From Frigidibacter oleivorans (GTDB lineage Bacteria > Pseudomonadota > Alphaproteobacteria > Rhodobacterales > Rhodobacteraceae), in NCBI RefSeq assembly GCF_003993775.1, contig NZ_RJRZ01000002.1:124001-188000 (forward strand): a DNA stretch of 64,000 nt, read 5' to 3'. A program made the translations under genes and the position numbers. Positions 41,423 through 54,733 of this stretch are shown here, piece after piece. Positions within the stretch are counted from its first letter, which is position 1. The number at the start of each line of letters is the position of its first letter. The notes beneath the pieces are model-generated. The model was not told where the DNA came from, did not search any database, and was given only the letters and a program-made list of their open reading frames with translations.

Positions 41423-41703
41423 CCGATCAGCTTCGACAGCTTCATCGCCACGGCGGCATTGCCCTGCAGCTTGATCTTGCCGGTGACCAGCGCGGTCATC
41501 GGGTTCAGGTTGCCCGACAGCAGCTTCACCAGGTTCTCCTCGCTGATCTTCAGCGTGCAGTCGGTATCGCGATCCACCCGGCTGGCGCCGCCATCGGCCA
41601 GCACGATCACGCCGCCTTCTCCACAATCAAATTTCAGCGAGCCCTCGAAGGGCTTTTCCTTCAGCTTGCGGTCGATGCGGGCGGCGATGTCGTCGAGTGT
41701 CAT
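41419..41703 (-). CDS. SCP2 sterol-binding domain protein
   Basis: A 94-residue stand-alone SCP2 domain: LKFDCGEGGVIVLADGGA, TDCTLKISEENLVKLLSGNL and PMTALVTGKIKLQGNAAVAM. SCP2 domains bind lipids or acyl chains in a hydrophobic tunnel; small alphaproteobacterial versions are uncharacterised. Divergent from ada, convergent and overlapping with the sulfotransferase-like gene. Confidence 0.9.
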   Translation of the reverse strand: MTLDDIAARIDRKLKEKPFEGSLKFDCGEGGVIVLADGGASRVDRDTDCTLKISEENLVKLLSGNLNPMTALVTGKIKLQGNAAVAMKLSKLIG

Positions 41704-41860: not shown

Positions 41861-43012
41861 ATGACCCTGTTCCCGCTTCCCCCCGACGACGTGCTTTATG
41901 ACGCGCTTCTGGCCCGCGATCCGGGCTGGGACGGGCGCGCCTATGTCTGCGTCGCCTCCACCGGCATCTTCTGCCGGCTGACCTGCCCGGCGCGCAAGCC
42001 GCTGCGCGCCAATTGCAGCTTTCGCGCGACGGTGGCCGAATGCCTCGACGCCGGGTTCCGGCCCTGCCGACGCTGCCATCCGCTGGCGCCCGAGGCCGGG
42101 GCCGACCCCGCCATCGCCACCCTGACCGAGGCGCTGGAGGCCGATCCCGCCCGGCGCTGGAGCGAGGCGGACGTGGCCGCGATGGGCTTCGACCCCTCGA
42201 CCGTGCGCCGCGCCTTTCGCCGGCAGTTCGGCATCACCTTCCTCGACATGGCGCGGCTGCGCCGGGTGCAGGCGGGCATGACGGAAATTGCCCGCGGCGG
42301 GCGGGTGATCGACGCGCAGCTGGAGGCGGGGTTCGACAGCCCGAGCGCCTTTCGCGCCGCCTTCGCCCGGCTGATGGGCGGCAGCCCGGCAGAATTCGCG
42401 GGCGACGCGCTGCTGCGGGCGGACTGGATCGACACGCCACTGGGGCCGATGGTGGCGGTGGCCGATGCCCATGCGCTGCACCTGCTGGAATTCGCCGACC
42501 GCCGCGCGCTGCCGTCGGAACTGGCGGTGCTGCGGCGGCAGGCGGGCGGCATCGGGCTGGGCCGCACCGCACCCATGGAGCAGGTGGCCGGGGAACTGGA
42601 CCGCTTCTTCGCCGCCCGCAGCGCCCGGTTCGAGGTGCCGCTGGCCCTGGCCGGCAGCCCCTTCACCCGCATGGTCTGGCAGGAACTGCGCCGCATCCCG
42701 GCGGGCGAGACGCGCAGCTATGCCGCGCTCGCGCAGTCCATCGGCAGGCCCACGGCGGTGCGGGCGGTGGCGCGCGCCAATGGCGCCAACCGCATCGCGC
42801 TGGTGATCCCCTGCCACCGGGTGATCGGCGCCGACGGCTCGCTCACCGGCTATGGCGGCGGGCTGTGGCGCAAGCAGGCGCTGATAGACCTGGAACGCCG
42901 GCTACAGCAGCACCAGCCGGATCAGGAAGGCGACGCTGCCCACCGCCGCCACCCCCGCCAGCCACAGCAGCACGAACCAGCCCAGCCGGCGCAGGACCTG
43001 CGGCATCAGTGA
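41861..43012 (+). CDS. ada: Ada, DNA methylphosphotriester and O6-alkylguanine repair protein/activator
   Basis: Ada repairs alkylated DNA and, once methylated on its N-terminal Cys, activates the adaptive response. 383 residues. The N-domain has all four Zn cysteines at E. coli positions (Cys38, 42, 69, 72; GIFCRLTC and PCRRC). An AraC-type HTH follows (about 75-180; FDSPSAFRAAFARLMGGSPA), then the O6-alkylguanine transferase with IPCHRVIG (acceptor Cys318). After about residue 347 it continues with a 36-residue Gln/His/Pro-rich tail that is the antisense of the DUF2474 gene; that tail is probably not functional. The ATG giving MTLFPLPPDD was chosen for the E. coli-like spacing. Confidence 0.93.
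   Translation: MTLFPLPPDDVLYDALLARDPGWDGRAYVCVASTGIFCRLTCPARKPLRANCSFRATVAECLDAGFRPCRRCHPLAPEAGADPAIATLTEALEADPARRWSEADVAAMGFDPSTVRRAFRRQFGITFLDMARLRRVQAGMTEIARGGRVIDAQLEAGFDSPSAFRAAFARLMGGSPAEFAGDALLRADWIDTPLGPMVAVADAHALHLLEFADRRALPSELAVLRRQAGGIGLGRTAPMEQVAGELDRFFAARSARFEVPLALAGSPFTRMVWQELRRIPAGETRSYAALAQSIGRPTAVRAVARANGANRIALVIPCHRVIGADGSLTGYGGGLWRKQALIDLERRLQQHQPDQEGDAAHRRHPRQPQQHEPAQPAQDLRHQ
42902..43006 (-). CDS. DUF2474 small subunit of the Cio-type oxidase
   Basis: A 34-residue, one-helix membrane peptide, MPQVLRRLGWFVLLWLAGVA then AVGSVAFLIRLVLL. It starts at a TGATG junction with the stop of the oxidase subunit II gene. DUF2474 peptides follow cyanide-insensitive bd-type oxidase genes and correspond to CydX-type stabilising subunits. 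The whole gene lies inside the 3' end of ada on the opposite strand. Confidence 0.85.
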   Translation of the reverse strand: MPQVLRRLGWFVLLWLAGVAAVGSVAFLIRLVLL

Positions 43013-44019
43013 TAGCCCTCTTCCGGGTCGATCTTGCCGCGGAACACCCAATAGGCATAGGCGGTATAGGCGAGGATCATCGGCAGCAGCACGACCGCCC
43101 CCGCCAGCATGAAGACCAGCGAGGATTGCGGGGCGGCCGCCTGTTCGATCGTCAGCGCGAAGGGCACCATCCAGGGGAAGAAGCTGATACCCACCCCGGC
43201 ATAGCCCAGCACGAACAGGCCGAGCGCGCAGAGGAAGGGCTGCCAGTCCGGCCCCCGCTGCAGGCCGCGCCACAGCAACAGCGCCATCCCCGCCACCAGC
43301 GCCGGGACGATGAACGAAAAGATCATCGTCGGCCATTCGAACCAGCGGTCGAGATAGCCCAGCTGCAGGAACGGCGTCCACAGGCTGACCACGCCCATGC
43401 CGGCGAGCGTGCCCGCCAGCGCCCGCCGCGCCATGTGCCGCGCCTCGTCCCGCAGGCCGCCTTCCGTCTTCAGCACCAGCCAGCAGGCGCCCAGCAGCGC
43501 ATAGCCCAGAACCAGCGCCACGCCGGTCATCAGCGAAAACGGCGTCAGCCAGTCGAACCAGCCGCCGGCATAGGCGCGGTTCTCGACCCGGATCCCCTGC
43601 ACCAGCGCGCCGAGCGCGATGCCCTGCGCGAAGGTCGCGGTGATCGAGCCGCCGAAGAAGGCCGCGTCCCAGCGGCGCGAGTCCGTCCGCCAGCGGTATT
43701 CGAAGGCGACGCCGCGAAAGATCAGCGCCAGCAGCATCACGATCAGCGGCGCGTAAAGCGCGGGCAGGATCGTGGCATAGGCCAGCGGAAACACCGCCAG
43801 CAGCCCGCCGCCGCCCAGCACCAGCCACGTCTCGTTGCCGTCCCAGACCGGCGCGACGGAGTTCATCATCACGTCGCGGTCGTGCTTCTCCGGGAACAGC
43901 GGGAACAGGATGCCGATGCCCAGATCGAAGCCGTCCATGATGACATAGGCCAGCACCGCGAAGGCGATGATCGCCGCCCAGACATAGGCGAGGGGCAGGG
44001 ACGCAAGGTCAAAGGGCAT
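43006..44019 (-). CDS. cydB: Cytochrome bd-type (Cio) quinol oxidase subunit II
   Basis: Membrane subunit of the bd-type oxidase. 337 residues, about eight helices; family start YVWAAIIAFAVLAYVIMDGF DLGIGILFP, and WDGNETWLVLGGGGLLAVFP, the signature stretch. Starts within the last bases of the subunit I gene. With the short Q-loop in subunit I, it fits the cyanide-insensitive CioB branch; cydB and cioB are alternative names. Confidence 0.93.
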   Translation of the reverse strand: MPFDLASLPLAYVWAAIIAFAVLAYVIMDGFDLGIGILFPLFPEKHDRDVMMNSVAPVWDGNETWLVLGGGGLLAVFPLAYATILPALYAPLIVMLLALIFRGVAFEYRWRTDSRRWDAAFFGGSITATFAQGIALGALVQGIRVENRAYAGGWFDWLTPFSLMTGVALVLGYALLGACWLVLKTEGGLRDEARHMARRALAGTLAGMGVVSLWTPFLQLGYLDRWFEWPTMIFSFIVPALVAGMALLLWRGLQRGPDWQPFLCALGLFVLGYAGVGISFFPWMVPFALTIEQAAAPQSSLVFMLAGAVVLLPMILAYTAYAYWVFRGKIDPEEGYH

Positions 44020-45427
44020 GGGGCGTCTCCTTCGCGGGTTCGGGATTGGCCGGGCCGGGGGTGATGCCCGCGGTCCGGATCGGCGCATCGACCAGTTCCT
44101 GTTCGTCGACCTCGGGCAGGCGCGCCATCAGCCGCAGCAGGTAGAAGACCCCGGTGCCGAAGATCAGGAAATAGACGACGACGAAGGCCACCAGCGACGC
44201 GCCCACCGCCGGGGCCGAGACGGGCGACAGGCTGTCCGCCGTCAGCATATGGCCATAGACCGTCCAGGGCTGACGCCCCACCTCGGTCGTGACCCAGCCC
44301 GCCAGCACCGCGACGAAGCCCATCGGCCCCATCGCCAGCGCATAGCGGTGCAGCCACGGGCTGTGATGCAGCCGGCCACGCAGGAACTGGACCAGCGCAA
44401 AGCCGCCCAGCCCCAGCATGGCGAAGCCCAGTGCCACCATGACGCGGAACGACCAGAACACGATCGGCACCGGCGGCTGTTCGTCGCGCGGGATGGTGTC
44501 CAGACCCGCCAGCGGCGCATTCAGGTCGTGCTTCAGGATCAGCGAGGACAGTTTCGGTATTTCCACCGCATAGCGCACCGTCTGCGCCTCCTGGTCCGGA
44601 AGGCCGAACAGGATCAGCGGCGCGCCCTCGGGATGGCTTTCGAAATGCCCCTCCATCGCCATGACCTTGGCGGGCTGGTGTTCCAGCGTGTTCAGCCCGT
44701 GCATGTCGCCGGCGAAGATCTGGATCGGCGCGACCACCAGGATCATGCCCATCGCCATGGTGAACATGCGATGCACCTCGGCCACGTCGCGGCCGCGCAG
44801 CTTGTGCCATGCCGCGACCCCGCCCACGACCAGCGCCGTGGTCAGGTAGGCCGCCAGCACCATATGCACCAGCCGGTAGGGGAAGGAGGGGTTGAAGATC
44901 ACCGCCCACCAGTCCACCGGCACGAACTGCCCGACCTCGTTGATCGCAAAGCCCGCGGGCGTCTGCATCCAGCTGTTCACGGCGAGGATCCAGGTCGCCG
45001 ACAGCAGCGTGCCGAAGGCCACCATCAGCGTGGCGAACAGGTGCAGCCCCTCGCCCACCCGCTTGCGCCCGAACAGCATGATCCCCAGGAACCCGGCCTC
45101 GAGGAAGAAGGCCGTCAGCACCTCATAGCCCATCAGCGGCCCGATCACCGGCCCGGCCTTGTCGGAGAAGGCCGCCCAGTTGGTGCCGAACTGGTAGGAC
45201 ATGACGATGCCCGACACGACGCCCATGCCGAAGGACAGGGCAAAGATCGTCTTCCAGAAATCGAAGAGCCGCAGATAGACCCGCTCGCGCGTCGTCAGCC
45301 ACAGCCCCAGCAACACCGCCAGAAAGCTGGCAAGGCCGATGGTGAAGGCCGGAAAGACGATGTGGAAGGCGACGGTGAAGGCGAACTGCATCCGCGCCAG
45401 CACCTCCGCGTCGAAAGCGTCGAACAT
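44009..45427 (-). CDS. cydA: Cytochrome bd-type (Cio) quinol oxidase subunit I
   Basis: Haem-bearing subunit that oxidises ubiquinol and reduces oxygen to water. 472 residues. RMQFAFTVAFHIVFPAFTIG carries the haem ligand His22. GYEVLTAFFLEAGFLGIMLF is the proton-channel Glu region, FPYRLVHMVLAAYLTTALVV another haem ligand segment, and GWVTTEVGRQPWTVYG the signature. The region between helices 6 and 7 is short, as in CioA. The order cioA-cioB-DUF2474 is typical. I see no FNR-type TTGAT-N4-ATCAA box in the 286-base gap to sodC. Confidence 0.94.
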   Translation of the reverse strand: MFDAFDAEVLARMQFAFTVAFHIVFPAFTIGLASFLAVLLGLWLTTRERVYLRLFDFWKTIFALSFGMGVVSGIVMSYQFGTNWAAFSDKAGPVIGPLMGYEVLTAFFLEAGFLGIMLFGRKRVGEGLHLFATLMVAFGTLLSATWILAVNSWMQTPAGFAINEVGQFVPVDWWAVIFNPSFPYRLVHMVLAAYLTTALVVGGVAAWHKLRGRDVAEVHRMFTMAMGMILVVAPIQIFAGDMHGLNTLEHQPAKVMAMEGHFESHPEGAPLILFGLPDQEAQTVRYAVEIPKLSSLILKHDLNAPLAGLDTIPRDEQPPVPIVFWSFRVMVALGFAMLGLGGFALVQFLRGRLHHSPWLHRYALAMGPMGFVAVLAGWVTTEVGRQPWTVYGHMLTADSLSPVSAPAVGASLVAFVVVYFLIFGTGVFYLLRLMARLPEVDEQELVDAPIRTAGITPGPANPEPAKETPHAL

Positions 45428-45713
45428 CGGTTTTCCCTTCTTGTCGGCGGCGGCCCAGGGGGTCGCGTCCCTGAACATATTCTGCCTTGTAAATGTGTAG
45501 ATTGCACCCTTCATCGAGGGACGTGTCGTCGCAGCGCGTCGGCAGGTCGCAGCGGCAGGGTGCCGCGGCGGGTGACGCATCGGGTCCCCGGGCCGGATCG
45601 TGCCTGTCTCGTCCCGGAACATCGCGCGGCGGGGGCTGTTCCCTTTAGGCGGGCGTCGGGATGCCACAGCCGGTGCCGCGCCCGGAAATTCATGTTCGAC
45701 CGAAAGGAACGCC

Positions 45714-46286
45714 ATGTCCCGCACCAGCCTCGCCACAGCCCCGGCCGCCTGCGCCGCCGCCCTTGCGGCGCTGCTCGCCTCGCCCGCCGCGGCGCAGGAC
45801 GCGCCCGCGCAGACAGCGCCCACGAACAGCGATCCCGCCATGGCCTCCGGCACGGCCGAGTTCATCGACGCCGAAGGTGCCTCGCTCGGCAGCGCCGAAC
45901 TGACGGCCACGCCGCATGGGGTGCTGATCGCGCTCGACATGACCGGCCTGCCGCCCGAGGGCTGGGTCGCCTTCCACATCCACGAAGGCACCGCCTGCGA
46001 CCCCGGCGAGCGGTTCGAGACGGCGGGCGGGCATTTCAATCCCAACGAGTCCGACCACGGCTTCATGGTCGAGACCGGCCCGCATGCCGGCGACATGCCG
46101 AACCAGTGGGTCGACAGCGACGGCAACCTGCGCAGCGAGGTGTTCAACACCTTCGTGACGCTGGGCGATGGCGCGCCGGGTGATGTCTCGGGCCATGTGC
46201 TGATGCTGCATGCCGAACCCGACGACTATGAATCGCAGCCCGCGGGCGGCGCCGGCGAACGGCTGGCCTGCGCGGTCATCGAGTAG
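45714..46286 (+). CDS. sodC: Cu/Zn superoxide dismutase
   Basis: Periplasmic enzyme converting superoxide to hydrogen peroxide and oxygen. 190 residues. A signal peptide (about 1-28, ASPAAAQ-DA) precedes the fold. Copper and zinc motifs are WVAFHIHEGTACDP, TAGGHFNPNESDHGF and HAGDMPN, with HVLMLHAEPDDYESQPAGG and the disulfide Cys in LACAVIE. GAAAGGAA precedes the ATG. Divergent from the quinol oxidase genes. A GGAAC-N16-TGTT at 45616-45640 is a weak EcfG-like match. Confidence 0.94.
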   Translation: MSRTSLATAPAACAAALAALLASPAAAQDAPAQTAPTNSDPAMASGTAEFIDAEGASLGSAELTATPHGVLIALDMTGLPPEGWVAFHIHEGTACDPGERFETAGGHFNPNESDHGFMVETGPHAGDMPNQWVDSDGNLRSEVFNTFVTLGDGAPGDVSGHVLMLHAEPDDYESQPAGGAGERLACAVIE

Positions 46287-46312: not shown

Positions 46313-47611
46313 TCAGGCCGCGGCGGGGACCGGGGCGCGGCGGCCTGTGCCGCCGTGCCGCAGATAGCGCGCATAGCCCAGATCGGCGGCCGCGATATCG
46401 GTCGCCCGCCCCGACATCTGGTCCGCCAGCAGCCGGGCCGAACCCGCTGCCATCGTCCAGCCCAGCGTGCCGTGGCCGGTGTTCAGCCACAGCCCGGCCA
46501 CCGGCGTGGGTCCGACCACAGGCGTGCCATCCGGCGTCATCGGGCGCAGGCCGCACCAGAACTGTGCCGTCGCCGCATCGCCGCCGCCCACGAACATCTC
46601 ACCCACGGATTTTTCCAGCGTCGCCCGACGGGATTTGCGCAGCGACAGGTCGAAGCCGGCGATCTCCGCCAGACCGCCCACGCGGATGCGGTCGCCCAGC
46701 CGGGTGATCGCCACCTTGTACGTCTCGTCCATCACCGTCGACACCGGGGCGCGGGATTCGTCGCGGATCGGCATGGTCAGCGAATAGCCCTTCACCGGAT
46801 AGACCGGCAGGCGCAGCCCCAGGGGCGCCACCGCCCGCGGCGAATGGCTGCCAAGCGCCACCACCACCGCATCGGCGGCCAGCGGCCCGTCGGAGGTCAG
46901 CACGCCGGTCACCCGCCCGGCCTCGGCGATCAGCCGGGTGACGGCGACGCCATAGCGCAGGGTCACGCCCTTGGATGCGGCCAGCGGGGCCAGCGCCGCG
47001 GTGAACTTGAAACAGTCGCCGGTCTCATCCCCCGGCAGGCGCAGCCCGCCCGCAATCCGGTCGGCCGCCCCGGCCAGACCCGGTTCGGCGGCAAGACAGC
47101 CGGCACGGTCCAGCACCTCGAACGCCACGCCATCGGCCCGCAGCACGGCGATGTCCTTGGCCGCGGCCTCGACCTGTTTGTCGCTGCGGAACACCTGCAG
47201 GGTGCCCTGCATCCGTTCGTCATAGCGGATGCCGGTTTCGGCGCGCAGCGCGATCAGCCGGTCGCGGCTGTATTCGGCCAGCCGGACCATCCGGCTCTTG
47301 TTGCGGGCATAGGCGGCGGCGTTGCAGTTAGCCAGCATCCGCGCCATCCAGGCCAGTTTCACCGGATCGGGCGCGAGACCCACGACCAGCGGCGCATGGC
47401 GCTGGAAGGCCCATTTCAGCGCCTTCAGCGGAATGCCGGGCGCGGCCCATGGCGCGGAGTAGCCGGGGCTGACCTCGCCCGCATTGGCAAAGCTCGTCTC
47501 CAGCGCCGGGCCGGGCTGCCGGTCCAGCACCGTCACCTCATGCCCCGCCCGGGCGAGTTCATATGCGGTGGTGATGCCGATGACACCCGCCCCGAGGACG
47601 ACGACCTTCAT
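46313..47611 (-). CDS. dadA: D-amino acid dehydrogenase
   Basis: FAD enzyme that oxidises D-amino acids (typically D-alanine) to keto acids, feeding electrons to quinones. 432 residues: [20 protein letters not shown] (FAD fold), [40 protein letters not shown] and [20 protein letters not shown], all DadA hallmarks. I chose the ATG at the FAD motif; a frame extension would add MQQEFPV. No alanine racemase or Lrp gene is adjacent. Confidence 0.93.
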
Positions 47612-47787
47612 GACCGGAAACTCCTGCTGCACCTGTTCGCGTGGTGCGGCAGAAGATGCATCCGCCGCGACGGAATGTGCTGGCGAACTTGGCCGCCGGA
47701 TCGGGGATCTGCGGCGGAATCTACGGCGGAATACGTTTCGGCAGCAAGATCATTCGCGCGAGTAGCCGAATCACCGCCGTCTGTCCC

Positions 47788-48552
47788 TCAGCCGGCCCCG
47801 GCCTCGCCCGAATCTTCTGTCGTGACCAGCCGGTAGTCGCGCAGCGCCTCGGCATCCAGCAGGAAGATCTCGTCGGGCGGCGTCGTCAGCGCATCGCGCA
47901 TCAGCATCGGGTCGACGCCCATCCGGTCCAGATAATCCATCACCGCCGCCTGCCCGCGCTGCACATCCTCGACGGCGAGGAAGGCGGGCAGGATCGAGTT
48001 TTCGCCGAAATAGTGCTGGTGCACGCCCACCCGCCCGCCCTCGGCCACCCGCCGCTCCACCCCGCCGGCGAGAATATAGGGACAGGCCGACAGGCAGACC
48101 GCGCCCTCGGCCACCTCGGTCGCCATTCCCGCGGCCCGCGTGGCGCGGCCGATTTCCAGCGCATCCGCCACCGAGCCGCCGGAACTGTCCAGCCGCAACA
48201 GCGTCGCCCGCGCGCCGGCATCGCGCCGTTCCTGCAGATAGGCGGCAAAGCGGTCGGCATCGCCCTCGGCGATCTGGCCCAGCAGGGTGACGGCGGTGCC
48301 GTCGGCAGAAAATTCCAGCCGTTCCGGCATCGGCTGCATCGCGGGGGCGCCCGGCGTGCCGCCTGGGCGGACATCGGGGCGGTAGGGGCGCGTGGCGGGG
48401 CCGCTGCCGGGCGGGGCGAAGGTCGCCGGATCGGCGGCCTGACGCGCCGCGGGCGCAAGGTCCAGCGCCACCACCGCCAGCGCGATGGCGATCTGGCCCA
48501 CCATCACCGCGCGCAGGGCGCGGTCGGGCGTGCTGCGCCGCGCCTCGGTCAT
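47788..48552 (-). CDS. Membrane-anchored ClpP-fold (COG3904-like) protein
   Basis: A 254-residue protein with an N-terminal signal-anchor helix (AVMVGQIAIALAVVALDLA, about 15-33), a Pro-rich linker and a ClpP/crotonase-like domain. Fold landmarks are LLRLDSSGGSVADALEIGRA (oxyanion-type Gly-Gly) and AVCLSACPYILAGGVERRVA, where Ser-Ala-Cys occupies the nucleophile position. VGVHQHYFG has His at a plausible triad place, and DEIFLLDAEALRDYRLVT closes it. This predicts a periplasmic serine protease or an inactive relative. Start codon overlaps the stop of the upstream four-helix membrane gene, so the two are coupled. Substrate unknown. Confidence 0.75.
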   Translation of the reverse strand: MTEARRSTPDRALRAVMVGQIAIALAVVALDLAPAARQAADPATFAPPGSGPATRPYRPDVRPGGTPGAPAMQPMPERLEFSADGTAVTLLGQIAEGDADRFAAYLQERRDAGARATLLRLDSSGGSVADALEIGRATRAAGMATEVAEGAVCLSACPYILAGGVERRVAEGGRVGVHQHYFGENSILPAFLAVEDVQRGQAAVMDYLDRMGVDPMLMRDALTTPPDEIFLLDAEALRDYRLVTTEDSGEAGAG

Positions 48553-49862
48553 GGCCGGTCCGGACCCGGCTGGTCCAGCGGATGCTGGCCCGGCAGGCTG
48601 CGCACCGTGGCCAGCGCCGCGCGCAGTTCGGCGACGGTCATCGTATCCTCGACCGTGCTGTCGCCGCGCCCGGCCCGGATCGCGGCCTGCGTCACCATCA
48701 GGATGAAGACCAGCACCGCGGGCAGCAGGTCGATGGCCACGGCGCCCGCCCAGCTGGGAATGAAGTTGCCGGCATAGCGGATCACCGCATCGGCGGCCGA
48801 GATCGGGGTATAGACCGTCTCGTCCGGCTGCGGCAGGGCGATGACCTCGGCCGCGGCCGCCGCCAGCGTCTGTGCCCGCAGCGCGACCAGCCCCAGCACG
48901 GAATCGATGGTGCTGGCCTGACTGCTGCGCGCCAGTTCGCTGCCGCCGTCGAGTTCCGGCAGCACCACCGAATCCGCCAGATCCTGCGCCGCCCGGTCCA
49001 CCAGCGGGGCCACGTTCAGCTGCCGCAGCTGGGCCACGATCCCCGACAGGCGCACCGCCTCTTCCGAGAAGCGCACCGACCGTTCCTCGACCGGACCCGG
49101 CTCCACTGTCAGCGCTCGCATCCGGCTGAGGATGCGGTTGCCCTCGGCAAAGGCGGTGGCAATGGGTTCGTCCTGCGCCGCGATCTGCGATTCCAGCGCG
49201 GCCAGTTCCGCGGCCTTCTGGGTCAGCACCCGGAACACCGCGCCCTGGCCGGCAAAGCCCGACAGGCCGCCCCCGGCCTCCTGTTCCGAAAGGTCGCCGA
49301 AGCTCTGGCTGACGCGCGACACGTCCCGCGCCAGCCCCTGTCCCGCGACGGCATTGGACTGCGCCCGTTCCAGCGCCGCCTGATAGGTCTGCACCGTGGT
49401 CGCCAGATGCTGTTCCACCGCCGCGGACCCGGCCAGCGCCGCGGCGTTCAGCCAGGAGGACATGGCGACGATGGCCAGACAGCCCAGACCCATCGACAGG
49501 AACAGCCCCACCCGCGCCGCCGCGGTGCGCACCGCCGGCAGAAGCCGCATCATGTAGGACCAGAAGACGAAGATCCCGACCGAGACGGCGATGGAATAGG
49601 AGAGCGCCGCGAAGGTGGTCCAGACGCCGCTGCCGTCCAGCAGCGTCCGCACGCCCAGATAGGTGTAAATGCCCGAGGCCGCCGACAGCACGCCCAGGGC
49701 GGTGCCGGTGAAGCTGTCCAGCCAAGTCAGGTGCCGTTCCAGTTCGCGCGCGTGGCGGATACCGGGGCGTTCCGCAACGGCGGCACCGGGCGCTTCGGCA
49801 TAGGCAGGGTCGATCCGGGCGGGATGCGGCGGGGCGGGGTGCGCGGTCAGATCCTCGGGCAT
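48549..49862 (-). CDS. Uncharacterised 4-TM membrane protein with large helical domain
   Basis: I do not recognise a named family. The 437-residue protein has a Pro/Ala-rich cytoplasmic N-terminus and three membrane helices (about 52-74 FTGTALGVLSAASGIYTYLG; 82-107 AALSYSIAVSVGIFVFWSYM; 118-142 GLFLSMGLGCLAIVAMSSWL). A helical, Ala/Gln/Glu-rich domain of about 230 residues follows, with coiled-coil character (LTQKAAELAALESQIAAQDE), probably outside the membrane. A fourth helix (about 376-400, AIDLLPAVLVFILMVTQAAI) and a short tail end the protein. I use the ATG with GGAGA four bases ahead. It is translationally coupled to the ClpP-fold gene, so it may be its membrane platform or substrate receptor. 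Confidence 0.7.
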   Translation of the reverse strand: MPEDLTAHPAPPHPARIDPAYAEAPGAAVAERPGIRHARELERHLTWLDSFTGTALGVLSAASGIYTYLGVRTLLDGSGVWTTFAALSYSIAVSVGIFVFWSYMMRLLPAVRTAAARVGLFLSMGLGCLAIVAMSSWLNAAALAGSAAVEQHLATTVQTYQAALERAQSNAVAGQGLARDVSRVSQSFGDLSEQEAGGGLSGFAGQGAVFRVLTQKAAELAALESQIAAQDEPIATAFAEGNRILSRMRALTVEPGPVEERSVRFSEEAVRLSGIVAQLRQLNVAPLVDRAAQDLADSVVLPELDGGSELARSSQASTIDSVLGLVALRAQTLAAAAAEVIALPQPDETVYTPISAADAVIRYAGNFIPSWAGAVAIDLLPAVLVFILMVTQAAIRAGRGDSTVEDTMTVAELRAALATVRSLPGQHPLDQPGPDRP

Positions 49863-50029: not shown

Positions 50030-51262
50030 TCAGCCCTTCTGCGCGACCCGGGCGTTGCGGGTGGCGATCAGCTTCAGCCGCAGCGCGTTGAGGTGGATGA
50101 ACCCCGCCGCGTCGCGCTGGTCATAGGCGCCGGCATCCTCCTCGAAGGTCACGTGCTTCTCGCTGTAAAGCGACTCGTCCGACCAGCGCGCGATCACCCG
50201 CGCCATGCCCTTGTAGAGCTTCAGGCGGACCGTGCCCGAAACATGTTCCTGCGTCTTGTCGATCAGCGCCTGCAGCGCCTCGCGTTCCGGGCTGAACCAG
50301 AAGCCGTTGTAGATCAGTTCCGCATAGCGCGGCATGATCGAATCCTTCAGGTGGCCCGAGCCGCTGTCCAGCGTGATCTGCTCGATGCCGCGATGCGCCG
50401 CCAGCAGGATGGTGCCGCCGGGGGTTTCGTAAAGACCGCGGGATTTCATGCCGACGAAGCGGTTCTCGACGAAATCCAGCAGGCCGATGCCATGCTTGCC
50501 GCCCAGTTCGTTCAGCCGGGTCAGGATGGTGGCGGGCGACAGCGCCTGGCCGTCGATGGCGACGGCATCGCCCTTGTCGAAGGTGATCTCGATGATCTCG
50601 GCGGTGTCGGGCGCCTCTTCCACCGGCACGATGCGCTGCGCGACGTAGTCGGGCGCCTCTTCGGCGGGGTTTTCCAGCACCGTGCCTTCGGACGAGGTGT
50701 GCAGCAGGTTCGCATCGACCGAGAAGGGCGCCTCGCCGCGCTTGTTCTTGGCGATCGGGATCTGGTTGGCCTCGGCAAATTCCAGCAGCTTCGTGCGGCT
50801 GGTCAGGTCCCACAGCCGCCAGGGCGCGATGACCTTGATCGCCGGATCGAGCGCCGCGACCCCCAGTTCGAAGCGCACCTGATCGTTGCCCTTGCCGGTG
50901 GCGCCATGGGCGACGGCATCCGCCCCCGTTTCCTGCGCGATCCGTACGAGGTGCTGCGAGATCAGGGGCCGGGCGATCGAGGTGCCCAGCAGGTATTCGC
51001 CCTCGTAGAGCGCGTTGGCCCGGAACATCGGGAAGACGAAGTCGCGCACGAATTCCTCGCGCACGTCGACGATGTGGATGTTCTCGGGCTTGATCCCCAG
51101 CAGCAGCGCCTTCTGCCGCGCCGGCTCCAACTCCTCGCCCTGGCCCAGATCGGCGGTGAAGGTCACCACCTCGCAGCCATATTCCGTCTGCAGCCATTTC
51201 AGGATGATCGAGGTATCGAGGCCGCCGGAATAGGCGAGCACGACTTTCTTGGGCGCGGACAT
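50030..51262 (-). CDS. argG: Argininosuccinate synthase
   Basis: Joins citrulline and aspartate using ATP in arginine synthesis. 410 residues: PP-loop AYSGGLDTS (10-18), [20 protein letters not shown], the signature [15 protein letters not shown] and the tetramer region [13 protein letters not shown]. The ATG giving [13 protein letters not shown] is standard. Divergent from the HWE kinase gene. Confidence 0.97.
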
Positions 51263-51404
51263 CGGCGGCTCCGTGGGGTCAGGGTCAACTGGCTCGCCGG
51301 AATAGGCAGTTTTGCCCCGTGCAGCAAGGGCGGCGGCCCGCAGGGGGACGGTAAACTTGTACCCGGGGCAATGTGCCCCCGGCGGCGCGCCCTGCCGCCC
51401 GGGC

Positions 51405-51432
51405 TTGCGGGGGGCAGGCGCTTGGCTATGCT
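51405..51432 (+). promoter_or_regulatory. Putative promoter of the HWE kinase gene
   Basis: TTGCGG (51405-51410), 16-base spacer, TATGCT (51427-51432), about 43 bases before the ATG. Confidence 0.45.
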
Positions 51433-51474
51433 GGGCTTGGCCATGCCGGACCGGCATGCCGCGAAAGGAAGACC

Positions 51475-54334: not shown

Positions 54335-54733
54335 TCAGGCCGGAGGGCCGGACAGGAGCGCGCGCCGCGAGGCCGCGAAACAGGCGATCCCCGAGGCGAG
54401 GTCCAGCGCCGCGCCCATCTGCCGCCCGGCCGGACCCGCCAGCGCCACCAGTGCCTCGGCCCGGGCACAGAAATCGGCGAAGCGCGCGAAGCCCAGGTTC
54501 CAGGCGCTGCCCTTCAGGAAATGCAGGTCATCGGCCAGCGCGGCCGCGTCGGCCTCCATCCCGCCGGGGCCCGAGAGGCGTGCCAGCACCTGTTCCACCT
54601 CGTCGAGGAACAGCTCCACCACCTCGGCAAAGCTGTCCTCGCCGATCTCGTCGCGCAGGTCACGAACGCGCGCCCAGTCGATCAGGGGCGCGTCCGCCGC
54701 GCCCGCGGCCCCGCCCTCCGCCCTTCCGTCCAT
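54335..54733 (-). CDS. Hpt-domain phosphotransfer protein
   Basis: A 132-residue stand-alone histidine phosphotransfer domain: FAEVVELFLDEVEQVLARLS, then DDLHFLKGSAWNLGFARFAD with phospho-acceptor His71, and the closing helix with FCARAEALVAL. Such proteins shuttle phosphate between a hybrid kinase and receivers. I chose the ATG giving MDGRAEGG, immediately before the domain. Divergent from the receiver-PP2C gene, its most likely partner; the pair faces away from a shared 139-base gap. Confidence 0.87.
   Translation of the reverse strand: MDGRAEGGAAGAADAPLIDWARVRDLRDEIGEDSFAEVVELFLDEVEQVLARLSGPGGMEADAAALADDLHFLKGSAWNLGFARFADFCARAEALVALAGPAGRQMGAALDLASGIACFAASRRALLSGPPA

Follow-up and report, generated by a model that had tools for sequence, protein, structure and literature searches.

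Two overlapping genes of Frigidibacter oleivorans, here called M and P, raise the question whether a membrane protein with a long helical domain and a ClpP-fold protein encoded behind it form a conserved unit, and what such a unit would do. They were noticed in a 64,000-nucleotide stretch of DNA, the whole of which is called the window here, by a sequence-only reading that recognised no named system and suggested a membrane-associated protease with its own scaffold or substrate sensor.

Genes M and P

Both open reading frames were confirmed where that reading had placed them, M first and P behind it on the minus strand of a genome of 4.05 Mb in 38 contigs, and the stop of M and the start of P share four bases (Table 1). 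Also the architecture read from the letters agreed with the AlphaFold2 models: the predicted helices of M fit a four-helix membrane protein with a domain of about 225 residues between the third and fourth transmembrane helices, and P was predicted as an N-terminal helix followed by a ClpP-like domain, the Ser-Ala-Cys claimed for it lying within CLSACPY (residues 153-159).

Table 1. Features of the M-P locus, in positions of the window.
Feature	Position	Strand	Basis
Gene M, 4-TM protein with long helical domain, 437 aa	48549..49862	-	ORF list, AlphaFold2, invariant columns
M TM1, residues 50-72 (approximate)	49647..49715	-	AlphaFold2 helix 33-72; boundary by eye
M TM2, residues 84-104 (approximate)	49551..49613	-	AlphaFold2 helix 81-110, hydropathy
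M TM3, residues 118-142 (approximate), with SSWLNAAALAG	49437..49511	-	hydropathy, invariant columns, AlphaFold2
M helical domain, residues 143-368, predicted periplasmic	48759..49436	-	AlphaFold2; charge bias
M glycine-rich loop, residues 196-216	49215..49277	-	between helix 114-196 and the next helix
M TM4, residues 369-392 (approximate), with D378 and P381	48687..48758	-	hydropathy, invariant columns, AlphaFold2
M stop / P start overlap, ATGA	48549..48552	-	sequence
Gene P, membrane-anchored ClpP-fold protein, 254 aa	47788..48552	-	ORF list, AlphaFold2, fold search
P membrane anchor, residues 16-35 (approximate)	48448..48507	-	AlphaFold2 helix 9-38; positive N-terminus
P Gly125-Gly126, matching the ClpP GG	48175..48180	-	78/78; aligned to own ClpP
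P nucleophile motif C153-L-S155-A-C157	48082..48096	-	C, S, C each 78/78; Ser in register with ClpP Ser
P His178, catalytic-His position	48019..48021	-	78/78; in register with ClpP His
P Asp227, likely third triad position	47872..47874	-	spacing: 49 residues after His, as in own ClpP

Co-occurrence and distribution of the pair

A scan of genome contigs for M found 88 relatives, of which 80 were kept; their record titles are Rhodobacterales names. P followed M in 78 of the 80 loci, and in the other two (L080 and L085) the contig ends just after or inside M. The stop of M and the start of P, the latter chosen mechanically, overlapped by four bases in 54 of the 78 loci and ranged from -26 to +9 in the others except L042, in which the M frame is broken in the record. 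Two hand-thinned alignments were used, A1 for P (the window and 58 loci) and A2 for M (the window and 53 loci); L042 and L085 were removed from the M set and from the identity calculation, and the truncated L033 was dropped from the conservation count of P. Mean pairwise identity was 68% for M and 49% for P among 77 M-P pairs, the window included. As order and closeness are kept in nearly all relatives and both proteins are conserved, the arrangement is more than chance.

Among 149 genomes sampled from the same family, and searched with limits of 1e-3 for M and 1e-25 for P, 45 had a match to M and 46 to P. Long matches to both were present in 44, always on the same contig and strand and separated by -18 to 221 bases, apart from one at 626, and a long match to only one of the two was found in none of the 149. 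The co-occurrence that the sequence-only reading had proposed as a test was thus found both in the contig loci and in this sample. The three odd genomes, searched with the window proteins only, contain fragments, namely a 79-residue M match in G423 and C-terminal P pieces of 95 residues in G336 and 71 residues in G428, and no intact single gene was therefore seen in the sample. The P pieces (L146, 212-496, in G336; L145, 3089-3301, in G428) lie without a detected M, which suggests that the pair was lost jointly. In all genome-sample searches only a few candidates, at most 4 to 18, were scored in each genome, and the absences are therefore soft.

In a class-wide sample of 289 genomes seven matched M, and of these matches the one in G101, a 34-residue stretch containing a stop, is probably due to chance. 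The P profile matched 73 of the 289; most of these matches were much weaker, and many are probably ordinary ClpP. P-type proteins are thus far more widespread than M. The M matches in a phylum sample of 398 genomes, 19 altogether, all fell within this class, the alphaproteobacteria. P adjoined M in 21 of 23 further loci with an M match, two of which are both S. meliloti and several of which are duplicate genomes of the earlier samples, and the rhizobial pairs have the same arrangement. Carriers were few, 2 of 17, in the family of genome G015.

M and P are a true conserved unit, and being overlapping genes kept together in many alphaproteobacteria they are probably one envelope protease unit.

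M also matched 139 plasmid or chromid records, chiefly of Sinorhizobium and Phaeobacter. On the 227 kb plasmid record pP66_a of Phaeobacter inhibens (L121) the pair lies beside MgtC/SapB, STAS-domain and lytic transglycosylase genes.

The ClpP-like protein P

The model of P (59 sequences, pLDDT 87.4) consists of one N-terminal helix (residues 9-38) and a ClpP-like domain, with a proline-rich linker of about 40 residues between them, and it matched an S. aureus ClpP mutant structure in VIA with Z 16.0 over 156 residues at 2.8 A. Invariant in all 78 P sequences were S155, H178, G125, G126, C153, C157, P158, Y159 and Q179. Position 227 was occupied by D in 47 of the sequences, E in 16, Q in 7, N in 6 and other residues in two, and was thus acidic in 63 and non-acidic in 15. 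Profile comparison with the ClpP of the same genome set serine on serine and histidine on histidine (hhalign E 1.9e-4 over 91 columns, with a probability of only 48%), and the Ser-His and His-acid spacings were 23 and 49 residues in P and 25 and 49 in that ClpP. The two glycines match the GG of ClpP, which has the oxyanion role. A ClpP fold without catalytic geometry in a structure had been named beforehand as grounds for abandoning the proposal; at the level of the alignment, serine and histidine appear in register with those of ClpP.

The window P had no Pfam match at E 1, CLP_protease included. Its relatives matched CLP_protease weakly (34 of 59 members at E <=0.1, the best 5e-5) and NfeD1b_N weakly in 7 of the 59, and the best NCBIfam match of P was NF045542 (E 0.00097, residues 88-180), with 19.1 bits against a cut-off of 120. 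The Phaeobacter copy is named 'ATP-dependent Clp protease proteolytic subunit' in its RefSeq record. The C-x-S-A-C motif is not special to the pair, as it is found in 14 of 16 P-profile relatives without an M match, the other two not being shown by the pattern used. Judged by this motif and by recognisable homology, P is a member of the known CxSAC-type ClpP-like proteins and not wholly unrecognised. For P the original statement that no named system is recognised was thus only partly supported, while M convincingly matched no described family.

Comparison with known proteases

P shares with ClpP (S14) the fold, the registered Ser, His and GG, and the His-acid spacing. It differs from ClpP in its membrane anchor, its predicted periplasmic side, the CxSAC motif in place of the AASMG of ClpP and the variable third residue, and in that no ClpX-like ORF lies beside it in the window; the one ordinary ClpP of the genome is encoded elsewhere, adjoining an ORF that reads as ClpX. 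The other alphaproteobacterial CxSAC ClpP-like proteins, which we take to be COG3904, have the same nucleophile motif, but no M match was found in the 16 short loci or among the M matches listed for their genomes.

The partner proteases of NfeD1b/stomatin operons have a membrane-attached ClpP-like domain and a membrane partner gene; in NfeD1b/STOPP the ClpP-like domain is followed by TM helices and an OB domain, and the partner is an SPFH protein (stomatin). Unlike these, P ends in the model after the ClpP-like domain, with no C-terminal membrane or OB domain, and the 54 M members, which matched 14 Pfam families at E 0.1, had no match to SPFH/Band 7. SppA (S49) belongs to the ClpP-like superfamily and is membrane anchored, with a Ser-Lys dyad. 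Against P, SppA_67K reached 12.8 bits, the NCBIfam cut-off being 311.45; the window P contains no Lys, so there is no SppA-type dyad, and any alignment column has a shared Lys in at most 11 of the 59 sequences. Also the phage ClpP-related head maturation protease represented by NF045542, far below its cut-off, differs from P, which is membrane-anchored and for which no phage setting was seen.

The membrane protein M

The AlphaFold2 model of M (pLDDT 84.5) has long helices at residues 33-72, 81-110, 114-196 and 369-400, with more helices between the last two, and is read as four predicted TMs with a helical domain (about 143-368) between the third and the last. The mean majority-residue fraction over 77 rows was 0.81-0.87 in TM1-TM3 and 0.84 around TM4, against 0.67-0.77 for the helical domain. 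In TM3, residues S135, S136, W137, L138 and N139 were invariant in the 54 rows of A2, but only N139 was kept with certainty throughout the ten diverse rows listed. D378 and P381 were present in all these ten rows, as was the glycine-loop pattern G-x-[LY]-[ST]-G-x-x-G-x-G, the P-less relatives L135 and L136 included in both cases; overall, the loop was about as conserved as the helix beside it (0.77 vs 0.76).

The HMM searches proposed earlier for both proteins left P with a sub-cut-off NCBIfam match at best and M without a family above cut-off: the best Pfam score of the window M was 12.8 bits against a cut-off of 27, and NCBIfam gave no match. The best Pfam match among the M members was Head-tail_con (2.2e-4, in 4 of 54), followed by matches of single members to StiP (0.0018) and others, all of which were taken as chance coiled-coil matches. 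No Foldseek match to a known fold was found for M at E 0.001 or better, and the VIA matches, to designed bundles (best Z 13.3) and to ClyA-type and BAR-type helical proteins, were set aside as lying in the range that the tool gives to common arrangements. M is thus without a convincing Pfam, NCBIfam or PDB relative; what is new is M and its pairing with P, which itself already falls in a known superfamily.

The distant M relatives L135 and L136 occur without P, and M may accordingly have a role of its own. In L135 (7922-9247, genome G097) the M relative lies among ORFs that, by reading of their translations, appear as an integrase, a recombinase, a TraG/VirD4-like coupling protein, a relaxase and an ArdC-like protein, so mobile elements may also carry M-like proteins. 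Upstream of both P-less relatives there is an ORF of about 230 aa (L136, 1997-2707; L135, 9870-10565); its product resembles a membrane protein and might serve as a partner in place of P.

Topology and the proposed complex

The net charge of M was +3.1 in the TM2-TM3 loop and +1.2 after TM4, and -1.8 in the TM1-TM2 loop and -2.7 after TM3, at the start of the domain; the N-terminus of P had +2.3. Some signals disagreed: the charge was neutral (-0.4) ahead of M TM1 and positive (+1.1) behind the P anchor. Taken together, the charge bias mostly places the soluble domains of both proteins in the periplasm. For a protease provided with its own scaffold, both domains would have to lie on one side, as is predicted here.

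The reading preferred here, with a probability of roughly 0.55, is that M and P form one inner-membrane complex, in which P would be an ATP-independent periplasmic serine peptidase held and regulated by M. The N-terminal helix would anchor P and the proline-rich linker would carry its ClpP-like domain into the periplasm, while M would cross the membrane four times and extend its long helical domain into that compartment too. Proteins of the envelope or membrane would then be the substrates of P, a putative Ser-His(-Asp/Glu) peptidase that M would hold, gate or target. The computed features from which this reading starts are gene linkage, fold, the invariant Ser, His, GG and Cys residues, and topology by charge; catalysis, contact with M, the substrates and the regulatory role of M are what we infer. 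Several results count against it: the third triad position is not always acidic, the hhalign probability to ClpP is low and the window P lacks a Pfam match, some charge signals are contrary, P-type proteins are far more widespread than M, and M has the two distant P-less relatives.

Envelope proteolysis is less well mapped in alphaproteobacteria than in enterics. A ClpP-like enzyme in the periplasm, if P is one, would need to function with no ATP at hand. M, as a dedicated and more conserved membrane partner, is a concrete candidate for how this could be done. It is a speculative extension, of low probability, that M replaces the AAA+ unfoldase and feeds or opens a ClpP-like chamber in the ATP-free periplasm, where ion flow or lipid state, acting through N139 in TM3 and D378 and P381 in TM4, could drive the long domain and the glycine-rich loop.

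Relation to SMb20360 of S. meliloti

The P profile matched pSymB of S. meliloti 1021 only once at E 0.01 (370827-371528), directly behind an M ORF. The P ORF there has 267 aa, or 243 aa if started at the internal Met25, and the annotation of another S. meliloti strain gives the gene an earlier start, with 261 aa. The available part of a study published in 2012 assigns SMb20360, with 243 aa, to the Clp-protease superfamily (PMC3462710). Because of this length and the uniqueness of the pSymB match, the S. meliloti P gene is very probably SMb20360, and P has thus very probably been mutated once already. The protein is about 36% identical to the window P over residues 55-244.

According to the same part of that study, a GUS insertion in SMb20360 was expressed in nodules (8/13 and 13/16 in two strains) and not in free-living cells, and plant growth with the gene disrupted was like that of the wild type, the gene being dispensable for symbiosis (PMC3462710). 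This absence of a symbiotic defect also counts against the proposed complex. The available text does not mention the M gene beside SMb20360 (PMC3462710). In the literature searched, no published description of M or the M-P unit was found, and searches for a periplasmic or membrane-bound ClpP gave no paper. S. meliloti and Phaeobacter inhibens, laboratory organisms that carry the pair, make the proposal directly testable, and for the likely P gene there is already a published insertion mutant.

Alternative explanations

The main rival, an unlikely one, is that M is the substrate or regulated target of P. In this reading P would cut M within its periplasmic domain and thereby disassemble or switch it, in the way in which stomatin is cut by its partner proteases. 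The strict pairing and the shared predicted compartment agree with this, as does the fact that M is the more conserved partner and occurs without P in distant relatives; a stomatin-specific membrane-bound protease has been published, according to the part of the source available (PMC3795559). However, no cleavage site was identified in M, and adaptor and substrate readings are not separated by these results. That M is conserved more strongly than P and has relatives lacking P would suit either a working part under the control of P or a general scaffold.

A sensor role, in which M would respond to a signal in the envelope by releasing P for the first cut of a signalling cascade, is improbable. 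In S. meliloti RCAM1750 the pair lies behind three response-regulator genes on the same strand, and the mutant of the likely P gene is described as highly competitive under salt and detergent stress, by another study cited in the available part of PMC3462710. Against such a sensor stands the lack of a conserved regulatory neighbour. When eleven window ORFs were compared with the 80 loci (flanks up to 6 kb, identity at least 40%), only cydB and the ORF at 41459 recurred beside the pair, both in the same two Frigidibacter loci (L007 and L008), and an operon with the window neighbours was rejected. Nor was there a striking shared promoter pattern: upstream of M in 54 sequences, simple patterns occurred at about chance level relative to mononucleotide shuffles, with two exceptions too weak for use, an RpoH-like pattern (8 of 54 against 2.7 expected) and GGAAC (9 against 5.1).

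Also doubtful, at about one chance in ten, is that P is no protease and instead another ClpP-fold hydrolase or a pseudoenzyme forming a structural ring, with the Cys pair redox-active or structural. The variable third residue and the invariant CxSxC around the serine would suit this, but the strict invariance of Ser, His and the glycines is unlike a decaying enzyme. A mobile defence or toxin-type cassette is very unlikely: distribution is patchy, even within the family, neighbours vary and a P-less M relative lies near ORFs reading as transfer genes, but sequence conservation is high, ORF clustering around the pair gave, besides the pair and antisense shadows, neighbour clusters common to groups of up to 25 of the 80 loci, and a defence system was rejected on PADLOC, which had no match for M and one of only E 0.019 for P.

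By reading of translations, the upstream neighbour of the pair in the window (50030-51457, minus strand) is an argininosuccinate synthase and the downstream one (46313-47632, minus strand) a D-amino-acid dehydrogenase-type oxidoreductase. Further on, the ORF at 45600-46286 (plus strand), which reads as a Cu-Zn superoxide dismutase, is divergent from those reading as cytochrome bd oxidase subunits, cydAB (43006-46150, minus strand), and the window ORFs at 54335 and 56193 look non-coding.
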